64,000 nucleotides of DNA from contig CM026426.1 of NCBI GenBank assembly GCA_014871385.1, forward strand, positions 49,401,263 to 49,465,262, written 5' to 3'. The notes under the pieces were generated by a model. The model did not search any database, was not told the origin of the DNA, and saw only the letters and a list, made by a program, of their open reading frames with translations. Source of the DNA: Ceratodon purpureus. Its lineage: Eukaryota > Streptophyta > Bryopsida > Pseudoditrichales > Ditrichaceae. A program made the translations under genes and the position numbers. Of the stretch, positions 33,471 through 48,944 are shown in pieces. Every line of letters starts with the position of its first letter. The stretch's first letter is position 1.

Positions 33471-34260
33471 TCACGGCCAATCTGAAACAGGTTTCCCTCC
33501 TGCCGATCCTCGGGCGAGTGAACAGACTCTCCGTCCCCGGGGGTCCGTCCGAATCACTACCTTCCAGCCAGGTGCGTCGGGACATTCCGAGAAGAAAACC
33601 TGTTCGACGTGTGAAGGCAATGCAAACGAATCCGTACCAAACTCTACCATCCTATTAAAGTTAGCTATGGTGAAACCCCATCTATCTTTCTTCATAGTGG
33701 CTGATGGCCCTTTGTAATTGGCCTTCACCCAGAAAACGACCAACACTATTTGCGTAAAGATATTATAGTCTAGAACAACAATCTCATCCAGATTTCCCAC
33801 ATACTCAACTGGAGCCATAAGTATGTTGTGGTCTCCTATTCCAGAACGACATGCCCTGATGAACGTACCTGCTATCCTAGAATCTGACGTCCTCATTCCA
33901 ACCTCTGCACTTTAAACACAAAGATGATTGCCATATACGTACATACTTTGATATTTCTGCGCAATCATGTTTCGGAATTTTGATATAGCACTCACCATTT
34001 CATCAACCCATATACCATTCAATTCTTCATCCCCTACGGTCTGTCAAAACCAATCAGCAAATTGCGGATGCTCTATGAGTTCAGCAGGAAAGTTAGGAGC
34101 TCGTGACCCAGATCGTGATGGATGTCGAGAGCGCCATTGCATGCAAGCCTGAGTCGCTCCTCAACCAGCTTGTCGTAATGCCTACATATTGTGAATAGAA
34201 GGTCACATGCGATATTATGAATGTTAGTTCTAATATCCGGGAAGTTGTGATTAAAAATTG

Positions 34261-34300
34261 CATTAGGTGCAAAATGGGGTCATGAAAAGGCCGTGTAAGC
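34261..34300 (+). repeat. Left terminal inverted repeat of the 11.8-kb element
   Basis: Begins CATTAGGTGCAAAATGGGGT and ends in GTGTAAGC. The reverse complement of 46,064-46,103 begins CATTACGTGCAAAATGGGAT. They differ at positions 6 and 19 only. Confidence 0.85.
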
Positions 34301-34384
34301 GGCACGTGAGAGAAAAAAACAAACGCTGCCCGCGTACTTTTTGACATGGCACCGAACATGCCACCGTGGTGCCGGCAACCGCCA

Positions 34385-34460
34385 CGGGGGCTCGAACCAA
34401 TGACCTCCCCGCGAGGCGTGTGGAGGGCACATCTACAGTGCTGGGCTGACAGCGGACTGG
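34385..34460 (-). repeat. tRNA-like (SINE-head-like) segment
   Basis: On the minus strand there is a B-box match, GGTTCGAGCC (34,389-34,398), and upstream an A-box-like CAGCCCAGCACTG (about 34,437-34,449). The spacing is slightly long for a tRNA, and no full cloverleaf could be drawn, so it is called a tRNA-derived relic rather than a tRNA gene. Confidence 0.35.
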
Positions 34461-35202
34461 CGGAGCAAGGACCAAATCCCGAGCCGGCCTACTCATGTCA
34501 GCAATGTTTCTGCCAGCACTTTGAACGAGCAAATTATGAGTCCGCCCACCTACCTCCCCCACCGACGATGAGTGAGTGCCGAAGTTTTTGAACTTCGTAG
34601 GGAGAGTGAGTGCAGCCAGCAGGTGTTCGGCGCTACGAGAGAAGCGACGCACTTGGGAAATTGGTTGCAGGCAGCGGGAGTTGGGGCTGAGAGGATTCCA
34701 GCTGATTTGGGAGAGTGGCTGTGGGTTAGTGCAAAGGGAGAAACACGTGATTGTGGAAATTCGGTGACGGCAGCAAGAGTTGACACTTGCTGGGAGTTGA
34801 CCAGGTGATTTGGGGTTGTGGATGTTGTTCATGTAGCGAATTGTGCTTGAGTAGTTACTTGCTGAATCAAGGTGGAAGTGCGGCTTTCTTCGCTGTCAAC
34901 TCAATGTGCCGTTTGCTGCCAGCGAGCTACAAAACTAGGTAATTTTTTTTTCAATATGATCAATTCCCTGTCTTGACATGATCCAAGCTGTTCTGCCTCC
35001 TGGAGCAACGTTGTGACTAGGCATGAATTCCTCAAACTTCATCTCTGATTACGAACTCAGGATTTTGCTCTCCTCAAGTGCTTATACTATGCAAATTTGA
35101 TTTTCGCTGTGCTGGCAGCATGTTCCCTGACCTTGGTTGGTACGAAAGGGAGATGTTATAGTTCATTTCTGTGTCTCCCAATACCTTGGGGTTTAGGGAA
35201 GC

Positions 35203-36351
35203 ATGGCTAGACGGCCAAAATCGATAGTTCAGAGCGTAATTTTGCACAACGATCAAGATGTCCATGGCAATTGGATCCCAATGAGGCTGGACCGGGATTC
35301 GTGGGTTCTGCTGCAACCAAAGTCGGAAGGGCCTTGGGGTAGAGAGGCAAGGCGGCATGGTGGAGATAATTTTCGAGGGGCCTTCAAGGCTCAGATCGTG
35401 GATTTCTCATGGACACCTGGTGTGCGTGGAGCAAGCAACCTGGATAAGGTGCTTGTGCGGCATGCGTATCAGCCTCGCCAATTAAGCTTGGATCCCGCTG
35501 TGGCAGCAAGTAGGCAATGCACAGCAAACTACCTATACTCCTCGCACTTTGATGATTGGGTGCACCCCACGTCTATCAATAGTCCCATTCTTGTGCTCCA
35601 TGTAGAGATTGGGGAGGCGACGCGGAATGGTCGAAGCCATACAGACTTGTTGGACACGAGTACATTCTTTCTTAATGGCGTATATTTTCCCCCGGTAGAG
35701 CCTACGTTGTACGGGAAGATAGAACCAATCCCGCTCCCTGGTTTCAACGACGTGGAGTGGCCTTTGCCAGACATGCACACCTCCGAAGCCTTCAGGACGA
35801 AGCTGACAGCAGATTTTTCGAATGCGATAAAAGCGTCCACTGGCAATAGTTTCGCCCATGAGCAATGGTTTATGCCTGTCCACGTTATGGTGGACTTGTT
35901 TGCGATCGCATGTGACAGCATTCGGCGGACTCCTACACTCTTCGTTCTACACTCTCCGTCGGAGGCACTCCTAAGTAGTCTAATAAATCCTGGATGGGCT
36001 GAGAAGTTTCACATTGGCCAGGATGTTATCAAGTGCGTTGTGAATAGGTCTAGCGTTGTCTTCCGGTACCATGTGGGTAGGCAAACACTATACACCAGGT
36101 TCTAGTATACAAGGTTTCGGGGTGCTGCCAACAACAGATGGGATGCGATTGACCATCTACCAGAGGTGGAGATGGTAGAAGTCTGCTGTACATTTAGAGG
36201 GAGACCAATGCCAGCATTTGAAGTGGGCAAGGACTGGCCTGTATCCCACTTGCGCCATGAAATTGCAATGACGCTCGGAGACGATGATCCCAAAGAGTAC
36301 AACATGGTTCTGGTAGAAGCAGACGGTTCACGTGAAAAAAGGTACATGTAA
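35203..36351 (+). pseudogene. Unknown protein of the 11.8-kb element (gene A)
   Basis: An open frame of 300 codons (MARRPKSIVQSVILH…TLYTRF), a TAG at 36,103-36,105, then the same frame continues for 82 codons to 36,351. The body is Trp/His/Pro-rich and globular, with no cysteine clusters, no membrane segment and no motif I know. The last ~60 residues (VEVCCTFRGRPMPAFEVG … LRHEIAMTLGDDD) have the strand-strand-helix rhythm of a ubiquitin-like/beta-grasp fold; this is a weak inference. The near-duplicate TATACACCAGG/TATACAAGG around the TAG suggests a small local duplication there. It is transcribed outward-to-inward from the left end. Confidence 0.45.
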
Positions 36352-37267
36352 GTAGCATCACCCCATTGGTTTTAGATATGGAAGGTGCTGCTGCTTGGTA
36401 TCAGCATAATTGTACTAACGCATTTTGTTGGAGGCATTTTGTTAGATCAACATACGTAATGAGAGGCGTGTACTTCTTTGTGAGGTTGCGGTTCCCAAAA
36501 CCATCAAGATAGTGGAGGTGTAGGACAACAACGTTTTCACCACGGCATTAAGGTGATCTATTAGTGTCTTCACAAGTCTGCCTACAGTATTTGAGATGAC
36601 TCCATGTTTCACTAGACCAATGCCAGAATGATTCTTTGCACTTGTAAGGGACTATGTTTTGTGCTTGACACATCATGTATGGTACATATATGGTCAATCA
36701 TGTAATCTTCCCCCTTGATGAATGAAGGTCTTCTTCTAGAACATGTTGCTGTCAGCACACATTAGGGTTCACGACCAAGGCGACTTCCATACCATCACTA
36801 CCAATGTGGCAGCCACATGTATAAGATAGAAATGAAAGAGGATAACATTCATCATAAGTATCGAAAAAAAATGAGGTTCGGTTTTTTTAAAGTCTGACCC
36901 CAACGCCCCCCCTTCCAATCGGAACTACTTACACACTGCTGCGAGCAACTACATGCTGGCACCGCAGCTGTGAAAATAGAGTCGAAAATCAGGGCAACAA
37001 ACGCAAATGCAACGTGGCACAAAGTAAATGCCACTAATACTAATTCGCTATGGCACTATCAACCAAAAAAAACCACAGACTCTAAGCCTCTACTGAGCTC
37101 GCGATGGCATCAACCAGCTTCTCCAGGGCAGCTCCAGCCGAGTCTTGAGATGTCCCCCCGGACTCGGTGGTACTCGAGCTGAGTCCACCACCATGAGTGG
37201 CTGTGTCCTCGGCCTCCTGGCGTGGAGGGGCTTGTGTCCCCCGCTGGAAGCTGAGGTCATCTGACTT
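36352..37267. other. Non-coding spacer in the 11.8-kb element
   Basis: 3' flank of gene A and of the minus-strand RING-like gene. The plus-strand stretch at 36,360-36,850 is unremarkable. The segment 37,085-37,267 may still belong to the 3' end of the RING-like gene in another frame. No other coding signal. Confidence 0.3.
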
Positions 37268-39025
37268 CTAGGTGCTAGCAACACCATCGCCATCCCCTCC
37301 ATCTGCTCGCAGCAAGGCCGCGGATACCAGGGGCTGAGCGGAGATCTTGGCGATGACATACGGACCCGAAGCCTCCGACTCCTCCAGAAAGCGAGTCTTC
37401 TTCTTGACTTGGTTTTCCTCCCCCAAAGGAGGAGAAGAGCGCTCAGCGGCCCTCTTGCTGCCAGCAATAGGGCTCTGGAGGTCTGGTGCTCCCACCTCGG
37501 ACTTGAGAACCTCCTGGAGGTGCTGGAGCTCTGCTTGAGCTGACTCATGCAATGGAAATCCCCATTGCCCAAGCCACCCCCCACTCAAGGAGCGGCAGCA
37601 ACGGCTACACTTGGCGTCAAGGGAGAAGACAACCTCAAACATGCAATGTGGGTGTGCCAAGCAGCTGCAGTTCAAGGGTACACAAGCGGCGTCAACAAAG
37701 TACCGTGCACATAAGGGGCAAGGGTCGGAAACCTGAATGGGGAGGGCTCGAAACTCGGATGGCAGGTGTGGGAGCACACTCTTCGGGCGAATGAATGCCG
37801 CTGCCAGCTCCAGGGTCATGATCTCCACGCTAAGAGCACCAATCTCGGCCTTGCACCTCTCTATGTCCCCCATCAATGCGTCCATCTGCTTCTCCTTGTT
37901 GTCAATGCGAAGCTGGGCTTCTTTGGCACCCTTGCTCGCATTGGCCATCTGATCACCACCTAGACGGGCCCGAGCATCCAATCGCTTCTTCTCTGCCGTG
38001 TTGCCAGCGACCCCGGCTAGCTTGCTGGCAGCACGGTGGGCAGCAATCTGCTCATAGAACCGGCCCTCCTCATCCTCCTTCTCCTACATAAAGGTCTTCT
38101 GGTTCTTGATATCTCCAAGAAACAACTCCCTCTGAGCCTCCTTCTTCGTGAGGTCGGCCTGAAATCTCGCCTTCTTGGCCCTGGCCTGGTCTAGCTTCGC
38201 CTTCGGATCCGTGCTGGGTCAGTCTTCATCCTTGCTGCCAGCAAGTGAAGACTTGGGCAAGAGCTCTTCCTCAGTGATCAAGGGCGCCTTCGACTTGAGC
38301 TGGCTTCGAGTGCGACCCCGAGCTCCCTCTGCTGCAGGCGCTCCCTTGCTGCTGCTCCCCGTAACAAGGACCCCGTGGCTAGGTCCAATGCCGACTCCCC
38401 CAATGGCCAAGGATGTGTTGCCAGCAGAGGGTCTGTCGTCGATGTGGCCAGCGAGCACGTCGATGAGGGCCTCGATCTGCTCTCTGAAGGCTGGGGGTGT
38501 GAGCTTGAGAGGGTTGCGGGCATCTTTCTTATCACGTGCCTTCTGCAAGGTCGCGGCTTTCTCTGCCCAATTGACGTCTTGGCCCAGCTCGAAGGTCAGA
38601 TGACAGCCTCGAAGGAAGGAGGTACCAAATGTCCCGTTGTCAGGGCCTTCACCTCCATACACCTTCGCATGCTGGAGTGTGTAAGCCTCAATAGCCTGGT
38701 TGTCAGTGCAGTCAGTAATGTGGTGGCGCCCTCCATGTCGTTCAGGCCAACTCTTAATGAATAAGGATTTCTTGCATACCTTGTCACTGCTGAGCTCGGT
38801 GAAGGATATCCCTTTCTTGCACAGGCCAAGTGTACAGTGGAAGAAATCGATGTCGTAGTTTGCGCTCTTCCTACCAAGAAGAAAGGGCGCAATCACCACG
38901 ACCTTGTCCGCCACATCCTGCGGCAGAGCCTTCAGGTTGAAAGGGAGGTCCCACTGCGTGAGAACACCGTCGTCCTTGCTGCCAGCAACCATGGCTGCGA
39001 CACAACATAGAGTTGTTAGAGACAC
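37268..39025 (-). pseudogene. RING-like zinc-finger/coiled-coil protein of the 11.8-kb element
   Basis: A single frame of about 585 codons from ATG 39,025 to 37,268, broken by TGA at 38,219-38,221 and one TAG near 38,090. The N-terminal ~150 residues (VLTQWDLPFNLKALP, FIKSWPERHGGRHHI) are globular. The middle is a Lys/Glu/Gln-rich coiled coil (DQARAKKARFQADLTKKEA; RIDNKEKQMDALMGDIERC). Then come CPLCARYF, LNCSCLAHPHCMFEV and CSRCCRSL, a C-x2-C … C-x-C-x2-H-x2-C … C-x2-C RING-like cluster. It ends in W-x-x-x-W-G-F-P-type residues (GGWLGQWGFP). The C-terminal 100 residues are polar. A RING-like fold suggests ubiquitin ligase-type or zinc-structural activity; this is inference. LAGSK recurs because it is encoded by the GCTGCCAGC motif. 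Confidence 0.55.
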
Positions 39026-39950
39026 AATGCATCGAGGACAGTAGGTTGACTACCTCTTAAGTATACTAAGAAGGAAATAGACTCCGGAATCGCTTACCCT
39101 CTTTGCGGACAGCAAACACTGTAGCTAAAACAATGACTTTGGCTTCTTGAATACAGTTCAAGCAATTCCAAGGATATACACACCTAAGAATTTAAATTCA
39201 GATTTGCTACAGTATGTCTATCCTCCTTGCAAACTAAGCTCAGGTCAATTGGTTCAAAGCCAAAGTGTAATAGATTGAACTTCAAGAAAACTGATCAACA
39301 ACCATAGTAGAATTAAAAAGAGTGGAGGGTATACCTGATGTTGATGTTGCCGTAGCTCTAATGCAGCTCTGTTTCTTCTCGTGTTGATGTTGCCGCACCG
39401 CACTGTCCTCAGCAGCTCCCTTCCCCGCTGTGTCCGCCGCAGCTCCTTCTGTCGCTGCCCCAATCCTCCGGAGCTTCCCTCCTCCGCAGCTTCCTCTCCC
39501 TGCAGCTCCCTTCCTCTCCTTCGCCGCCCCAATTCCCCGCAACTCCCTTCCCCCTCAGCTCTCTCCCTCCCTTCCTCTTCTTGCGCTGCCGCAGCTCGTT
39601 TCCCCCGCAACTCCCTCCCTCCCTTACTGCCCCAACCCCCCTCAACTCCGTTCCCCCTCAACTCCCTTCCCCCTCAACTCCTTTTCCCCTCACCTCGGTC
39701 TCCTCATCTCCGCTCAACCCATGTCTACCTCTTCGCTGTAGTTTTCTCCCTCCCCGCACGTGCTCCACCAATGGTGAGCTTGGTGCAGCAACTCCCCTCC
39801 GAGGTCGTAGACACACAACGGCGTTACGGAGGAGTCAGCTGGCAGCAACGGCGGGAAGAGGAGGAAAGGGGAGCGCTCCTCTCCCTCTCTACCCCACGGG
39901 GTAATGGGCGCCACGGTCATAAGGGATGACCGGCGCCCATTATAATGCAG
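39026..39950. other. Leader region plus CT-rich low-complexity tract
   Basis: Upstream of the RING-like gene. From about 39,400 to 39,740 the plus strand is a degenerate CTCCCTTCCCC/CAACTCC repeat. It gives long but meaningless open frames on both strands (Pro/Ser/Leu-rich or Gly/Arg/Glu-rich). It ends near 39,895-39,940 with GGCGCC-containing inverted phrases (GGGCGCCACGGTCATAAGGG and CCGGCGCCCATTAT), suggesting a short hairpin. Confidence 0.45.
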
Positions 39951-39959
39951 CCCCTCTAC

Positions 39960-42115
39960 AGCATCCCATCACATTAATAGTCAAAAAAAAAAAAAATAAA
40001 TAAATAAAAAAAAGGATAAAAATCCAAAAAACAAATGATGAGAGATAAGAGAATTCTCTGAAGTTGGAAGGAAAACAAAATCAAGATAAAACCAAATGAA
40101 AATAAACACCAAATGAAAATAAAAACCAAAATGAAAATAAAACCTTACTCGGCAATTTTAAAAATACTTGACTATTGGAAAAAAATAAGAGAAGTCGGGA
40201 AACTAACTAAATCTAAAAATGAAAAGGAAAATAAATAAACATAAAAACATAAATTAGTAAAATACTAACCAAAACAAGAAAAGGTTTAAAATAATAATCT
40301 GTGGGAAAAAAAAATACAAATGGAGACATAATCAAAACCAAATGAAATTTAACCCTTATTTAGCGATTTCAAAAATATTTAAATGCAGGGGAATAAAAAT
40401 CTAAACAGAAGAAAACCTTAAATAATGAAGGATTAGAGAGATGTCCAAAATCTATATGGAAAAAGTATTAAATGGAGATAAAAGTAATCGGAAAAAAAAA
40501 ATGGAAAGGGAGAAAAAAAAAAAAAAAAAAAATGTATCTCCAAAAAATGGGTAGAGAGAAAAAAAAAAAAAAAATGAGGAAAAATTCCGAAATAAAGAAA
40601 AAATAAAAAGAGATAAAAACCCAAAAAACAAATGATGAGAGATAAGAGAATTATTTGAAGTTGGAAGGAAAACCAAATGAAAATATAAAGCAATGCTGAA
40701 AATAAAAAATGAAAAGAAAATAAGATCTTACTTGGCGATTTTCAAATTACTTGACTACAGGAAAAAAATCTAGAGAAGTTGGGAAACTAATTAAATTTAA
40801 AAATGAAAAGGGAAGAAAATGAATATAAAAAAACAAATAAGGAACCAAAACAAGAAAAGGTCTAAAACAATAATTGGTGGGAAAATTAAATAAAATTGGG
40901 AGAAAGGAAATAATATAATCTTAACAATTATTAGCTTTTGATTATTTAAAAAACCAACAACTATTAATCATGTCTTATCTAATGTCAGTTCATTGTACAG
41001 TTTCTGTATCTAGGAAAAAATGGGGTAAAGAAAAGGGACAAAAAAAGAAAAGAAAATGATTAGGACCATAACAAAGGAAACCCAAAAATAACAATTGTTA
41101 GGAAACAGAACAAAAACTATTAATTAGTAGTTCAGAGGGGGACTTTCGATAACATCAAATGAGAAAAAAATGAAAATTGAAAAATAAAAAGGTGTATAAA
41201 TTATTATTCATATTCGATAAATTGAAGAATTTGACTTGTATAAGTTTATGAAATTCTTATAATCTATTCTACTGTAACTCCCCCAGAAAGTGTATTTGAT
41301 TCTATTATTTCATTTTAAAATTTATTTTGGATATTTCCTACTTTTCCTAGTAAGTAATTTATTTTATTTTTAAATATTTTTACTAATATTTTATAATTTG
41401 GGTAAATTTTAAAAAATAAAAAACTTAAAAAAAAAATCTAGAAAATTGAGAAGAGTTCAGAAAATAATTGACTTTCTCTTTCATTTTTCGTGTGTCTTTG
41501 AAATAAAAATAAGTGATCTTCAATTTTTAATATTTAGAAAAGGAGAGAAACATAGAATTAAAAATTTAAAATAAGAAAATTCAATTAAGAAGTGATGCAA
41601 CTTAATGGCACCCAGGGTCTCCTAAAAATCTCTAAGAAATATTAAATGTAAAAACTTATTAACTAAGATATATGATCAAAAATTAAGAGAACTAAATTTG
41701 AAAGCAAGATTACTTTACAAGAGAACATGATTCAAAGGGGAAAAATTTGGCTTTTTGTAATATTTATTTCTATAAACAACATTCATATTTTCTAAAATTT
41801 AAATATGATATTGCGAATGTGAGATCATGTAGTTTAAAAAATTCAAGTCTAATTTGCCTGAGTATGGACGATGTTTCCTTGACTATGTATTTGCACATCT
41901 CCTAAATTTTGAAAGTGAATTGCTTGAATTTTTTAACTTTTTAACATTTTTTTTAATGAAAGCCTACATTTGAAGACAATTTAAGCGTTCATGTAACTAC
42001 TCGCTTCACTATCCTATCTATAGAATACAGTATCTTTGAAAGGTATTACTTCTCTATAACATTACCCTTCTACAAAACATTGTATATAAAAAAAAACTCC
42101 ATGACTCTGAGCCCC
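39960..42115. repeat. AT-rich filler with a ~600-bp-spaced direct duplication
   Basis: A-rich plus strand without genes. The passage ACAAATGATGAGAGATAAGA…GAAGTTGGAAGGAAAAC occurs at about 40,030 and again at about 40,628. Following text also corresponds (ACTTGACTA…GGGAAACTAA…AACCAAAACAAGAAAAGGT at 40,165-40,287 and 40,750-40,862). A third, weaker copy of the TTA-GCGATTT…TTTAAATGCAGGGG part lies near 40,350. So it is a decayed tandem or segmental duplication inside the element. Confidence 0.55.
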
Positions 42116-45100
42116 CTAGTCGCTGTCAGCATGTGCAATGTCGACATCGAGGGCAATATCCTCCCCGGCACCATTGGTTCCAGCATCTGCGATGTCCTCA
42201 TCGTTGTTAGCAGCGTCCCTCTGTTCATCTTCCTCGCCCCCACTGCCAACCATGTCCCCGTTGGCATTCCATTCCCGCTCTTCTTCCATCATGCCATCTC
42301 CTTCGTCCAACACGCCTTCTTCAAGAACATATGCTCGTTCAACACGCTTTCTTCAAGAACATATGCTCGTCCAACACGCCTCCTCCTTGACCTCCACTCC
42401 TCGCAGGCGATGGCAGCGTTTGATTGTTGCCACCGCTCGCGTCTGCTGGACCCCTCAGTGGCCCTTGCTCCGTCATCCGGGTCAGGTACAGCTCCCTGGA
42501 TTTCCATTTTTTTCCTATATCGATGTTGTATGTTTCGGTACCAATGCTGGATCAGCTGGAGAATCGCACTAGTACGGGCTTTCCCACCACCATGCGCTGT
42601 ATGTGCTTGATGTGCCGCCTTCGCTTGGTGGTGTGATTTCTCCATGCCTTGGCAGCTCCAGACTCCAAGGCTCCCATAGTGTTCCACAAACCAAGTGGAG
42701 TGCCGTACAATTACGTGCTGTCAACAAGAAGAAGGAAGTTAAAAGCCGGATACTTAGGTCAAGTAGACGGTTCACTGAAGAAACACCAAGAGCAACAACA
42801 GACAGAGCCGTGAGCATACCATATAATGGGTAACATGCTCCTCTCCGAAGGCCTTTAAGTATCCCTTTCCCCACTTGTGTAGCTTTTGCTTGAATTGCAT
42901 CCGTTGCTCTGCTGTCAACACCAATCCTGTCAAATATGGTACGACCTCTTCAAAGGCTTGCCACATCTGATACTTTGCAATGCGGTCAGCTCCACTTCCG
43001 GCATTATTATTCTCAGCTTGACATATATCCTTCCAGGCCTTATCATTGCCAGACCAAACGCTTGGCCTAAAAAGCCTGCTGGCAACAGTACCATTGAAAG
43101 AGGGTTTTTGCGGCACGTTTCTAGTGTTGCCACTGAGCTTGGGGTCCCTCTTAATCTCCACGTTTCCACCATGAGCCCTAATCGCGGACAACGACTTCTC
43201 CATCTGTTCAATTGCAGTAGCCCTCAGTCTCTGATTCTGTATGTTCCAAACATACATGATATGCATGTGCACTATCTTCTCCGTCAATCAAACCAAGGCA
43301 TGCAATGTACAAATGTGTACTCTGGACAAAGGAATCGGCAGGATAGGCCTCCACCTAGTAGATGTTGTCATGTCACAAGGTTCCTCAGGTACGCTGCTGG
43401 AAAATAGCCCCCCCACCCAGTTTGCTTTACCACAGCTCTTGATGGCAGCGTTTGCCTGACTTGCTGTCCCCACAGTGGGCTTTATCCTCTTCTGGTCGCA
43501 GTATATGCAGATCATTGCACACGACGGTTTGACTGAAGCCCGTACATACACTTGATCGTCTTCATGTCCGCAGCAAGATGCCACTCCACCTGGAATTCTC
43601 CAACTTCAGGGACCGTGAGTTTCTCGCCACTTGACTGTGCTGCTATCATAGCCGGGATGTTCGACTTTCCAATATCCACGACAGAACATCGTAGGACTCC
43701 TTCTCGACCTGAAACGTGGCAACTGGCCAAATCTCCTGCTCTGATTGTACTGAGAAGTACCTCTCGTGGTCCACCTGAATGTAAGCGTCCAAAGCCCGAT
43801 TCATCAACGTGATGCTAACACGTTCAAATTTCTTCCCGTTTATAATCTCAGCCTCATCCAGTTTGAGGACAAATATCAACGGAGCCCCTTCCAACTCTGC
43901 AAGAATATCCTCACGTGAGAATGTTTCTGTAATGCAATCGAATTAGCTTCCTTTGTTAAAGACACACAATGCAATTGCTGGCACCAAACGGACATTCACC
44001 TTTGCTGTCAACAAGAGAAGAAGAGGATGCATACCTGACTCCGTGATGCCATAATAGATCACCATGCTCTGCTGGACCACCTCAAGGTCCGTGAATAGCG
44101 AGTTTTTTTCATCTAAGACCACCTCCTTTCGCTGCTCCTCGGATCTCTTGGTTTTCTTTGACACTGCTGGCAGCTCCATCTTTCCCTCAGCGTGGTAGTA
44201 CTGGCCAATGAATTGTGGCAAGTTCGCATTTAGCTCCTCCTGAAGCCTTTTAGCGTGGTAGGGACTAGGTAGTATGTTGGATTTGCCATCCTTGGTCAAC
44301 TCCCGAAGTGGATCCTTCACGGCTTGGTAAATAGCACCATAGCCGCGATAGGACACCACTGCTTGGTCGCAGGCAGCAAGAATATTACCGGGCCCTACCC
44401 TTTTTCCAATTGCATTCATGACGTTACTAGCAATCTTTTTCCTAACATGATCCATAGATGGTTGAGTTGCGAGGGTGAGAGCTTCATGCCTAGACAATAT
44501 CTTTGCTAATGTTACAGCAGTTACTGTTTGGGAGGCTTTATCCCCATGAAGTCGCTGCTTCTCATGGTTGACCCGGTTGTTGTCGTTGACAGCATCCACA
44601 AGATGAGGTTGCAAATGCGTCCTAACAAGCTTCAATCTGCGTTTTGCCCACCCTGAACCATGATTCAACTCATGAATCCCCCTGAGCGGTCGAGCCATAC
44701 GTCGCATCCCTATATGCGTGTCCTTCAAAGGGCTAGGCCCCTTCTCTAGGCGCTCACTTGCTTGCTGCCAGCGACGCACCTCGGTCTCCAAGCCCTTCAC
44801 CGACACCCTATGATTTACCTCCATGCTGCTCATCTCGGTTCGAATAGTCTCCAATTCAATCCGCAATTGCATGCATGTATCCTCAATGTCCCTGTTATGG
44901 TCGAGCCTTTCTCTGCTGCCAGCTAGGTCCTCTCTCACCTTGCCGAGTTCTTCTTCTAAATGTTGGCACTGCATTTCCATCTCACGCCGTGTAGGTCCTC
45001 CTCCATCAACAAGACCCAATCTGCGTGCATATCCATACAGACCTTGCTCTCCATGACATATGAATTCCAGGCAATGTCGAAGAGTTTTGAATAGAGGTGG

Positions 45101-45650
45101 CCTCCATGTTCCTGGATCAACCGGGTAAATGCTGCCATCGATCCACAAATCAATGTTTGTAGCCCCGGCTGCCCTCCGTCCTGGAAATGTTCATGTGCAG
45201 GGTTGCTCGGATCTCATTGAACCTCTCCTAACAAGTGGTGCTTAGCGTGCATCAAGCGAAACTGAGGGACGGTAGCTTGAAGACTCTGCCACTCCTGCTG
45301 CCATCGTGAGTCCAGAATTCCGAAGTACTGCTTCAAGCTCTCAATGCCCCGGGTCGGCCTGGAAGTATGTAGATAAACGTTTTTAAAATTGCCAAATATC
45401 CAAAACTCGAGAGTTTTCAACAAGCAAACCCTATACCATAGCCACTCAAAGAAATTGCAGGATCAAATGAATAGCATGCAATGTACAAATGCACGACCCA
45501 AACTTGTCATAGAGAAATCGACACTTACACAACCTCTTCAGTCCACGGCAGGAGGTGTTGCAAGAACACCCTTCGAATGCTTGCTGCTCCAATTTGTAAC
45601 TGCTGCCAACGCGTATCTGCACAATCATGCTCACTGGTTTAGTTGTCACA
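42116..45650 (-). pseudogene. Long transposase-like protein of the 11.8-kb element (putative DDE type)
   Basis: Exons reading leftward: about 45,640-45,520 (WQQLQIGAASIRRVFLQHLL); 45,358-44,035 (AAFTRLIQEHGGHLYSKLFD, HADWVLLMEED, coiled coil, ALTLATQPSMDHVRKKIASN, ending YYGITES|G); 43,926-42,820; 42,717-42,116. Introns 44,034-43,927 and 42,819-42,718 have good GT/AG borders and keep frame. Candidate catalytic acids: D in IFVLKLDEAEII, D in EWHLAADMKTIKCMYG followed by CIYC, and E in WSCQGMEKSHHQAK, with an acidic tail. A hydrophobic strand ending in D, a second D followed by C-x2-C, and a late helical E suggest an RNase H-like DDE fold (inference). Breaks: TGA at 45,214-45,216 and 43,288-43,290, and frame changes near 44,980, 43,685, 43,545 and 42,310. 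Only part of the 5' end is resolved. Confidence 0.6.
42305..42390. repeat. 32-bp tandem duplication inside the transposase-like gene
   Basis: Units at 42,305-42,336 and 42,337-42,368 (GTCCAACACGCCTTCTTCAA… and GTTCAACACGCTTTCTTCAA…), then a partial third from 42,369. Because 32 is not a multiple of 3, the extra unit shifts the frame and separates the catalytic region from the acidic tail. Confidence 0.7.
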
Positions 45651-46063
45651 ATTTCCCTTGACTCTCTCGAATTTCACCTGCGAATTGGGTCGTTGCTCCT
45701 CCAACACCAAAATTCTACGCACCCAACTTCGATTCACCCCATTCCCAGGTGGGGAGACCAACCTACTGTCGACCGAGCTCCATGGCTTCTTCCCGTTGTG
45801 GCAGCAAACTTCGAATCTTGAAACGGTTGACACCAATCTCCCGTCATCTCTCCTTCGAATCAGGCTTCATGGGCAGTCAATGCGAGAAGGCGTGGTTCAC
45901 CAAACAAGGCAGCCACCTCGGCGCCACTAGGCACACCGACCCCGCCCCGCAACCCCATCCCGAGACCATTAAGTCGCCCTATTAACTCTGCGGGCAGCGA
46001 TCCTGGCACCCGCTGCCAGCGACAGTGCCACATTTGGGCAGGGAGTTCACCTAGAAAGGGCAG

Positions 46064-46103
46064 GCTTACACGGCCTTTTCATGATCCCATTTTGCACGTA
46101 ATG
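46064..46103 (-). repeat. Right terminal inverted repeat of the 11.8-kb element
   Basis: Pairs with 34,261-34,300 at 38 of 40 positions. It starts GCTTACACGGCC on the plus strand and ends GCACGTAATG. Immediately right of it is TATATGC. Confidence 0.85.
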
Positions 46104-46446
46104 TATATGCTTACTAACAATAGATAAATTAAATTCTCAAAAATGTCAGGGTACTGGTCACACCAGAGGAGGAACAAATAGCATACTGCATACATCGTAG
46201 ATCGAGCCATTACAAAAACCCAGAAATTTAAAGCAATAAATTACCTAGTTATGTACGATCACATGAAGACAAAAGTGAGGAGCACTCACACTCTGTATGG
46301 TTTGACGGCATCAACGTTGTCTATGACAAAGCTGTGAATATGCCAATGCAGGACTGCATTGAGAACATGCTTCATTGGTTGTCCCTCTAGAGCTGTGTCG
46401 TGCATCATTGGGTCCTCCTCTGTCTCCTACACTCTTTGAAATGAAC

Positions 46447-48944
46447 CTATATTGCAGTCGCCATGCCCTTTGTGGTAACACCGTCTTGACCAAACACTTT
46501 AGAGTCTACATCATGTGAGAAGGCCAGAGGAGCGAGGGCATTCTGTTGACAACAAGGAGTACGCACGTTGCCAGCCTCAGGAGATATGTCAATTGATGTT
46601 GTACCGGCTGATAGAGAGACGTTTGTAGAAACAGCATGACCAATTGGCATGGTGTTAGTGAACTTTTCTAGCAACATATAGGGAGTGAGGGGTACCGTAT
46701 CCCCACTCAAGCATGAGGGCGATAGTGTCTCGGCTGCATGGACTAGGGCCGTTGCTGCAGCTGCTAGATTTCTTGAAGACGTACCGCATGGAGAAGGCAT
46801 CTGATGCGGTGTTATTAGGGAGTGGGTCTTTTGTGCTGTTGAATGGACATGCAAGGACGCATCGGGCTCACACATGTGAAGGACTCCGCTTGGTTGAGCT
46901 GGTGCGCCATTAGACGTTTGATCCGGTGTTTTGTCCATCACTGGCGGCGTGGGCGTTGAGATCGGGTTAATCAAGCGGAGTAGTAATTTTTTCTCCTCTT
47001 TCAGTTGGTCCTTACTTGTTGACAAATCCAATGCCATGCTTTCCACAGTAGATTCGAGTGCATGTATCCTTGTCGATTCTCGTAATACGTAGGGAGGTGT
47101 GGCTGGCCGCTGCGTACAGGATCATGTGACCACGTTTTTTAGTACAAGTCAGAGGACGTGAAATGTGATTTCCATGATAGTAGGAAAATGATAAAGGGAG
47201 AGTACAAGATCATACTTGCGAGAAATGTGGCGTGCTATCTTCATGTCGAGGTACGCCTTTCAAAGCACATGTTGTTACATGATAGAAACCAGCTGGTGGT
47301 GTACTTTGTTGAAATTCAGTACTTTGACTTGCAGTAGAGTCATTGTGGTAAGTCGATGTTCCCTGCATGCAATATAGATGTTCATGGACCGGTTGGGTTG
47401 GCATAACCTGCAAGACATGCGACACAAACTTATGCACAAATGTTCACTTAAATGTGTTTGGCAAAGTCTTGAGACAAACTAGATAGCCCTAATTAAAGTA
47501 CGACAAATTGGATCACTTACGTGGAATGGAGATGGAGGCAAGCTTGCATGTTCCCCTGAAACTTCTTCTCTTCAATGGACTTTGTTCTTTCCTTTTCTCA
47601 TCTCAGTCATCTAAATTGATTCATCTTTCCCCTCTGCACTCAACCAGTATTTTCGCCATTCCGTGAAGGCTTCCTCTAGGTAGCGGTGATGTTTCAATCT
47701 ACCGCTTTCAAAGACGTACTTTTTCCAACATTTCCTATCGTTTTTCAGTGTGTTTTTCAGAAATTTTTCTAGGTAATTGATGTCTAATGGACTAGAGTAT
47801 GTAAACTATTGATCAAGCTTTTCAACAATGTTTTGAACTTGAGACATCCAATACTCCCGTTTGGTTTATAGCTTCTAACTTTGAAGTTTAGAGTTTGTCG
47901 GGCACACAATTGTGCAGCCCGATGCCATGGACTTTTGAGGCCGAGGACGGTAGCTGATTTGTAGACAGGTAGGTGAACGACAGGGTCACGATTCTCTGCA
48001 TGGGCAGCTGCCGTCTCCTTCATGTACGGTCACTGGAAGTTGCAATTCGCTGTTCGTTTACGGTTCCGCTCTTGGCCATGTTCCTCAATAGTCAGATCTT
48101 GAGGAAGACGAGATCCTGACTGCGTTCATCAAAGCCGTCGCGAATAGGAGGTCGACTGCTTGGACCGAAGCTTGTCTGTGTTACTCTTGTCTGCTGATGT
48201 CCTTTGCGGGGGAAGTTGGAATGGCAGCCTCTTGGGTCTTCGCTCCGGGATACTTGAACTGGAAAAGAGCCGAACTGGAAGGAGTAAAAAAGATGGTTCT
48301 GCTGGCCGCTAGAATGAGCTCCAGACTGAGTAGGTGCGAGATTTTGAGGCCGGATGTTCTCCATAGTCTATCCAGCTTGCTATGAGATCAATAGGGGACA
48401 AGAAATTCAGTACAAGGTTAGCTTCCAAACTTGATGTCATTAGTTGTGTGAGGTGATACTTCTAATTTTTGCCTATTCTCTTTAAGATATGCGGACACTC
48501 TGTTAAGCATGAATTCATAGTCATATACTCCCATACTGCTACCTGTCAATACAGTAGTCTAAATTCTGGTTGAACGCCTTACACACTACGGTGGTTGAAG
48601 CTGTGCACAAGCACTTGTGGAAGAAGCATACAATGCATCCCCAAAATGACATCATTTCAATGCATTGTGGTTTGTATGCTTACCTCGCCTTGGCCTGTCC
48701 GATCTACGAGTCGGCCTTCTACGACCGGGAGCCTTGCGTAGTGAGCTAGGAATGCCATCTGCGTGCTCTCTCACCGTAGTGACTGATCACGACGTTGTAG
48801 ACACAACCGAGCCGTCGAGGACAATTGCTCCTCACTGAGGCCTTCTGTGTTCGATGTGGATGAGGAGGAGGAGGCTGCGCCAAAGGAATTCCAGCCATCG
48901 AAGTCTGAGAAGGTATGCGACTTTGAAATATCACTGTGATCCAT
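46447..48944 (-). pseudogene. CACTA-2 TNPA-like gene
   Basis: Homologous by motif order to the gene at 27.5-30.4 kb. Exon 1 probably starts at ATG 48,944 (MDHSDISKSHTFSDF, Ser-rich like its CACTA-1 counterpart). The core region, about 48,030-47,600, has LKSPWHRAAQL, then in another frame YLEKFLKNTLKNDRKCWKKYV and LEEAFTEWRKYWLSAEG. These correspond to KWQVAV, YLSQILSNDRYKWHKHYV and DEAFETLRRFWESPEGK. Exons at 47,437-47,210 and 47,046-46,447 give the Ser/Thr/Pro-rich linker with a short coiled coil (TSKDQLKEEKKLLLRLI). The C-terminal G-x-I-V-A domain is missing. The frame is broken in the core. Confidence 0.6.

Follow-up and report, generated by a model that had tools for sequence, protein, structure and literature searches.

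RAG1, the enzyme of antibody-gene shuffling in animals, is grouped with the Transib transposons, a superfamily with CA..TG ends and a 5-bp target duplication; enzymes of the RAG type form hairpins on the flank at cutting and insert with a 5-bp stagger. The CACTA-Mirage-Chapaev-Transib/RAG1 (CMCT) clade is defined by D-D-C(2)C-H(4)H-E-type motifs, has CA..TG ends in most lineages and target duplications of 2-5 bp, and includes Lanisha (PMC12730594). Here we describe an 11,843-bp element at positions 34261-46103 of a 64,000-nucleotide stretch of the genome of the moss Ceratodon purpureus (G000:C6:49401263-49465262; hereafter the window). We conclude with good confidence that the element is a DNA transposon of the cut-and-paste type and encodes a transposase distantly related to RAG1/Transib (CMCT clade); most likely it is the moss superfamily Lanisha. 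The element inserts without target duplication, and it is studded with copies of a short palindrome.

The identity with Lanisha is probable and is based on its description, the host of Lanisha being deduced from its authors, among whom McDaniel is a C. purpureus worker. For Lanisha, PMC12730594 refers to Maumus, McDaniel and Carey 2020 (Repbase Reports 20:2521), and Maumus and Carey are among the authors of the C. purpureus genome paper. In a literature search for Lanisha, PMC12730594 was the sole DNA-transposon paper among the matches listed, as judged from titles and the starts of abstracts. The C. purpureus U and V chromosomes are each given as >100 Mb, about 30% of 360 Mb, in a review (PMC8000587); C6 has a length of 110,524,308 bp in a genome of 362,488,568 bp, and we infer that the window lies on a sex chromosome (U or V).

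Terminal repeats, copies and target sites

Positions 34261-46103 are one member of a DNA transposon family that is present in high copy number and has inverted CA..TG ends. The left terminal inverted repeat (TIR; 34261..34300, 5'-CATTAGG...) and the right one (46064..46103, ...CGTAATG-3') are complementary at 38/40 positions, and these 40-bp termini are the longest inverted repeat found within 33500-47000. The whole element, 34261..46103, is not flanked by a target-site duplication. Nearly all other copies start at the same first base C next to unrelated flanks, which marks the boundary of the repeat unit; the exceptions in the first bases are copies L003, L051 and L055. The initial annotation had recognised the 38/40 termini and proposed a TIR DNA transposon family, and both hold, as many other copies in the same genome share both ends. 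Specifically, the left-end search of the window's genome was followed for the 40 best of 1443 candidates (93-100% identity), the right-end search for the 40 best of 1161, and the search for full-length matches to a 389-bp derivative for the 40 best of 1315, while a search with the exon-1 protein gave 101 copies among 1272 candidates, 83-90% identical except for the window's own; the copy counts are lower bounds, covering the best-scoring candidates only.

Target sites were compared at 39 distinct insertions, 29 from the window's family and 10 from a sister family described below; left out were L086, a near-duplicate of L085, and one of ten newly added sister-family pairs, which had no right end where expected. 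Exact junction repeats of 0, 1, 2 and 4 bp are present at 25, 11, 2 and 1 of the 39 sites, close to the 27.8, 8.3, 2.0 and 0.1 obtained when left flanks are re-paired at random with right ones. A looser test, which scores the longest repeat at any position of the 12-bp flanks, yields a slightly high value (3.31 vs 3.06 +- 0.13), which we do not read as duplication. Furthermore, three joined flank pairs, in which the junction falls at query base 328, 185 or 50, were searched against the genome for empty sites: 39 of 40 matches run across the junction at one site and have equal alignment lengths on either side, one match crosses that of a second site likewise, and the third site (YL101) has no empty copy among the best 40 matches. 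The four empty copies inspected base by base contain no gap, and no mismatch lies within 7 bases of the junction (<=7). With junction repeats at chance level and gapless empty sites, insertion is therefore precise, target bases being neither duplicated nor removed. The initial annotation had suggested seeking other copies and empty sites from the TIRs to settle the target duplication; copies were found, and the duplication is 0 bp.

The sequence preference at the target is weak and symmetric, with A at -3 (17/39) and T at +3 (20/39), and no preference for AAATTT is seen in the 39 sites. This distinguishes the moss element from Spy (PIF/Harbinger-ISL2EU-Spy), which is likewise a cut-and-paste TIR element without target duplication but prefers AAATTT (PMC4482050); the moss element also has no Harbinger-type Pfam match. 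The absence of duplication also contrasts with the 2-5 bp given for the Lanisha clade (PMC12730594) and with the 5-bp CCAGG duplication flanking a TransibSU copy (PMC4411706). Among the matches listed in a literature search on transposons without target duplication, with the genome paper and the Repbase note outside its range, there were Spy-type elements and none that we recognised from the CMCT clade.

Two other kinds of element could account for insertion without duplication. A tyrosine or serine recombinase, or end-joining of the excised element, might carry out the insertion, the D-D-E gene being a passenger; duplication not above chance at 39 sites fits such a process. However, no recombinase domain of this kind was found in a scan of exons and genes that admitted matches with E as high as 10, the 39 target sequences differ and share only a weak preference, the two sites with empty copies show none of the lost or extra bases of end-joining, and the D-D-E exons have the lowest ratio of nonsynonymous to synonymous substitution (dN/dS) of the compared genes, so that we regard this explanation as very improbable. 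Helitrons insert without target duplication too, and a Helitron or a long terminal repeat (LTR)-type element might have been mistaken for a TIR element; the 389-bp derivatives with inverted termini on both sides, together with the lack of any Rep/helicase or retroelement domain for the frames scanned, make this explanation almost negligible.

Several copies were informative in their own right. Apart from the 389-bp deletion derivatives, with inverted termini present on both sides, elements L044, L048 and L052 (3111-3112 bp) form a deletion derivative that retains both ends together with exon 1 of the transposase and the first part of exon 2, as far as a point shortly after the first D, and that has lost everything else. 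Truncated end-binding proteins serve as repressors in other transposons, and this derivative could encode a truncated, end-binding protein. The flanks of the 389-bp derivatives L085 (C6:97.06 Mb) and L086 (C6:96.85 Mb) differ at 2/150 bases, which points to segmental duplication on the sex chromosome. On C11, two left ends and two equal-score gene A copies lie 7.87 kb apart (G000:C11:15317357 and 15325224), and a single right end (15337154) lies downstream of both left ends, as in a tandem or nested arrangement. The first empty site is located within an apparent Gypsy reverse transcriptase, and the YL101 site (G000:C4:21163936) is a sister-family copy inside a Harbinger nuclease-like frame; by eye, both frames are continuous over the junction.

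Transposase structure and likeness to RAG1

The exon structure of the transposase was obtained by aligning thirty transposase-region loci (L039-L068, L039 being the window's copy) of up to 3.6 kb, some of them partly deleted, and both introns are in frame in this alignment. The gene lies on the minus strand and is composed of exon 1 (44035..45304), with a coiled coil and a presumed DNA-binding part; exon 2 (42820..43926), with the first D (43858-43856), the second D (43568-43566) and C(2)C (43509-43498); and exon 3 (42289..42717), with H(4)H (42717-42700) and the catalytic E (42642-42640). On this strand the motifs KLDEAE, AADMKT, CIYC and QGMEKS start at 43864, 43574, 43509 and 42651. The initial annotation had placed its candidate motifs (D, a second D with C-x2-C after it, and E) in one exon at 43.9-42.6 kb; the motifs are present, but D, D and C(2)C are in exon 2 and E is in exon 3. 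The transposase gene of the window copy is broken: exon 1 contains two nonsense codons, and exon 2 differs from that of the siblings by two single-base frameshifts and a nonsense codon. In L065 and L041 the transposase is open across the exon parts obtained. In the sister-family protein, C555/C558 and H785/H790 lie between D535 and E810, and the spacing is equal in L065. A 32-bp tandem repeat is situated inside the exon 3 tail (window 42303-42398).

The initial annotation could not assign the transposase to a known superfamily; the D-D-C(2)C-H(4)H-E layout and its spacing match RAG1, and the transposase can tentatively be placed in the CMCT clade. Specifically, the active site of RAG1 consists of D600, D708 and E962, and its zinc residues are C727, C730, H937 and H942 (PMC4914335). 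The spacing in the moss transposase is D-97-D-20-C(2)C-227-H(4)H-20-E, compared with 108/19/207/20 in RAG1. Like Transib, ProtoRAG and RAG1, the moss transposase combines D-D-E with C(2)C and H(4)H, all spaced nearly as in those proteins, and shows local similarity around the catalytic E. EnSpm/CACTA, Chapaev, Plavaka and ESTA have the same motif set and, in most, CA..TG ends, but are given 2-5 bp duplications (PMC12730594), and none of their Pfam models was among the matches listed for the moss exons at E up to 1 or 10.

Searches with the catalytic part of the spliced L065 protein are consistent with this placement. In Pfam, RAG1 was the sole family returned, at a sub-threshold E of 0.23; in PDB, RAG1 chains made up 10 of 12 matches (E 0.23-1.3), near-identical to one another and therefore counting as one protein. 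These sub-threshold matches carry weight because of where they align, namely over H937/H942/E962 and, weakly, over D708/C727/C730. With a profile of the RAG1 E segment, the L065 score was reached by 0/20000 shuffles and that of the sister family by 4/20000, and in a ranking of 2250 moss open reading frames (ORFs) the top 20 were all near-identical copies of the window's family. BLASTP of the E segment gave 12/34 identical residues at E 6e-7, a single comparison with a segment picked because it already matched. Furthermore, the CA..TG ends of both the window's family and the sister family agree with those of CMCT elements.

Other results weigh against the placement. With the catalytic part of L065, the top PDB match is not RAG1 but Linker L1 (E 0.029), which slightly lowers our confidence in the assignment. 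RAG1 was returned neither for the whole spliced proteins nor for the read-through profile, and a genome search with PF12940 was empty, its controls being equally silent. The D segment is weak: of 20000 shuffles, 85 reach the score of L065 and 326 that of the sister family, and in the D-segment ORF ranking unrelated ORFs are intermixed with the family; the E-segment score of the sister family, 3.3 bits, is under those of three unrelated ORFs. An AlphaFold2 model of exons 2-3 from ten aligned copies is of low confidence (predicted local distance difference test, pLDDT, 33; predicted template modelling score, pTM, 0.26), and the element makes no target duplication where 2-5 bp is stated for CMCT lineages.

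These points would suit a separate DDE superfamily that converged on D-D-C(2)C-H(4)H-E and is unrelated to RAG1/CMCT: the RAG1 similarity is sub-significant in every search and absent with whole proteins, and the missing duplication is unlike CMCT. Convergence is nonetheless unlikely in our view, given that the catalytic and zinc residues align co-linearly at near-equal spacing, that the E-region match arose unprompted in two libraries (Pfam and PDB), and that the ends are CA..TG. The relationship to RAG1 and Transib remains the preferred placement.

Other candidates did not stand. Linker L1 (PDB, E 0.029 and 0.21), which also came up with two coiled coils when the spliced whole-protein profile was compared with PDB, was judged a chance match since it covers no catalytic residue. 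Poly(ADP-ribose) glycohydrolase (E 0.0008 with the read-through profile) was dropped, the match extending into translated intron, and KDZ, Zisupton and Plavaka were dropped for want of a Pfam match. Single exons gave no good Pfam match, and none of the hAT, MuDR, Harbinger, KDZ and Mariner transposase domains of Pfam was found for the exons at E up to 1 or 10. No relatives were found in viral contigs or prokaryote genomes, nor in plasmids, for which seven records were returned, the five listed being at E 3 and above.

A palindrome scattered through the element

The window element contains 16 copies of the palindrome GCTGNCAGC, where 0.1 would be expected, and the sister element contains 19, where 0.4 would be expected. 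The remaining 52,157 bp of the window have none, and 62,154 bp flanking right ends have two. In the window the 16 copies span 34445..46020, at element offsets 185, 655, 851, 1542, 2488, 3197, 3540, 3764, 3974, 4718, 5578, 7862, 9906, 10504, 10655 and 11752. An extended form, TTGCTGSCAGCAA, is found at 732 places in the genome, and its reversed control at 3. Among 50 TTGCTGSCAGCAA places listed, 31 are within 12 kb of a listed element copy; ten of the remaining 19 were sampled, of which nine lie in further element copies and one (L117) in no recognisable copy.

Near the ends, the position of GCTGNCAGC is largely fixed: 27/31 right ends have a copy at a distance of 83 bp, and 22/28 left ends have one at 184 bp, the 389-bp derivatives included in both cases. 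The palindrome also extends into the genes. Seven coding pieces contain 17 sites, compared with a summed mean of about 0.8 in codon shuffles that preserve the protein; taken one by one, short pieces with one or two sites do not exceed the maximum seen in the shuffles. By eye, some coding sites are common to the two families and others are not, and this partial sharing suggests that the density of the palindrome, rather than its position, is kept.

The GCTGNCAGC copies are putative binding sites for an element-encoded protein. The nearest known parallel appears to be Arabidopsis VANDAL21, in which a 9-base motif is bound by the element's own anti-silencing protein VANC21 and, as in the moss element, a motif is strongly enriched within one transposon family (PMC5735166). 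VANC motifs are mainly in non-coding tandem arrays according to the same source, whereas the moss GCTGNCAGC sites, whose binding is putative, are spaced singly over coding and non-coding parts. A literature search for the palindrome as a string, with the Repbase note and the genome paper outside its range, returned unrelated papers only.

Accessory genes, sister family and a possible mechanism

The element contains two further genes. Gene A (35203..36351, plus strand, the end at 36351 being read directly off the sequence) is a 414-amino-acid open frame in many siblings, with one nonsense codon in the window copy and no fold assigned; a search with it gave 130 matches from the 130 best of 980 candidates, and PADLOC returned no match. 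Gene B (37268..39049, minus strand) is an open frame of about 655 amino acids in many siblings, here split into 38219-39049 and 37268-38083, and recurs in 143 matches from the 142 best of 1500 candidates. Its C-terminus (37523-37801) has the pattern C-x2-C-x13-C-x-C-x2-H-x2-C-x11-C-x2-C, with RING-type spacing. The initial annotation had foreseen two accessory genes, one of them RING-like: both genes and the Cys/His spacing are borne out, although gene B has no RING match in Pfam. The structure prediction for its zinc domain is of low confidence (pLDDT 40), and no Kelch protein was found among genes A and B with Pfam. Upstream of gene B is a C-rich array of about 16-bp, CCGCAACTCCCTTCCC-like units (window 39468-39711), and an AT-rich part of the element (window 39993-40900) contains an internal duplication, 576-597 bp apart and 78-83% identical.

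The search with gene A exposed a second group, the sister family, 77-78% identical to the first, with 24 members at 552.5 bits and no internal stop; the identical scores suggest recent spread, and copies of 90-95% identity are also present. The sister-family copy read (L089/L090) is 10,834 bp long, with the same three genes and the same type of ends. Between the two families, where dS is >1.1 and thus near saturation, dN/dS is 0.075 for transposase exons 2+3 (444 codons), the lowest of the genes compared, 0.31 for exon 1, 0.124 for gene A and 0.30-0.31 for the two parts of gene B. Because these ratios are low between the window's family and the sister family, all three genes show purifying selection as parts of the element.

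In the mechanism that we propose, the transposase would bind the element ends, aided by the palindromes at fixed distances, and would cleave at CA..TG in the manner of RAG1, by means of a D-D-E active site of RNase H type that is stabilised by a C2H2 zinc site. Both ends would then be joined to the target at phosphates that lie exactly opposite one another. The palindromes would be bound by the transposase or by the product of gene A or gene B, for assembly of the end complex and possibly against silencing; the fold, the chemistry, the binding sites and the roles of genes A and B are as we infer them. More tentatively, and as a possibility that we rate below even, the element may represent a plant lineage of the RAG1 clade that combines blunt insertion at opposite phosphates with a body tiled with palindromic sites for its own protein, serving complex assembly or anti-silencing.

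The family has probably been named already, by C. purpureus genome workers, and the insertion without duplication and the scattered palindrome are apparently new, though either may have been described in the Repbase note or the genome paper. If the Lanisha of Repbase is the same family, blunt insertion and the palindromes are added properties of a known element. If a relative of RAG does insert without stagger, the geometry of target capture in the clade becomes testable, and the scattered palindromes offer a checkable hypothesis for self-marking by a large transposon that resides on a sex chromosome of a moss.

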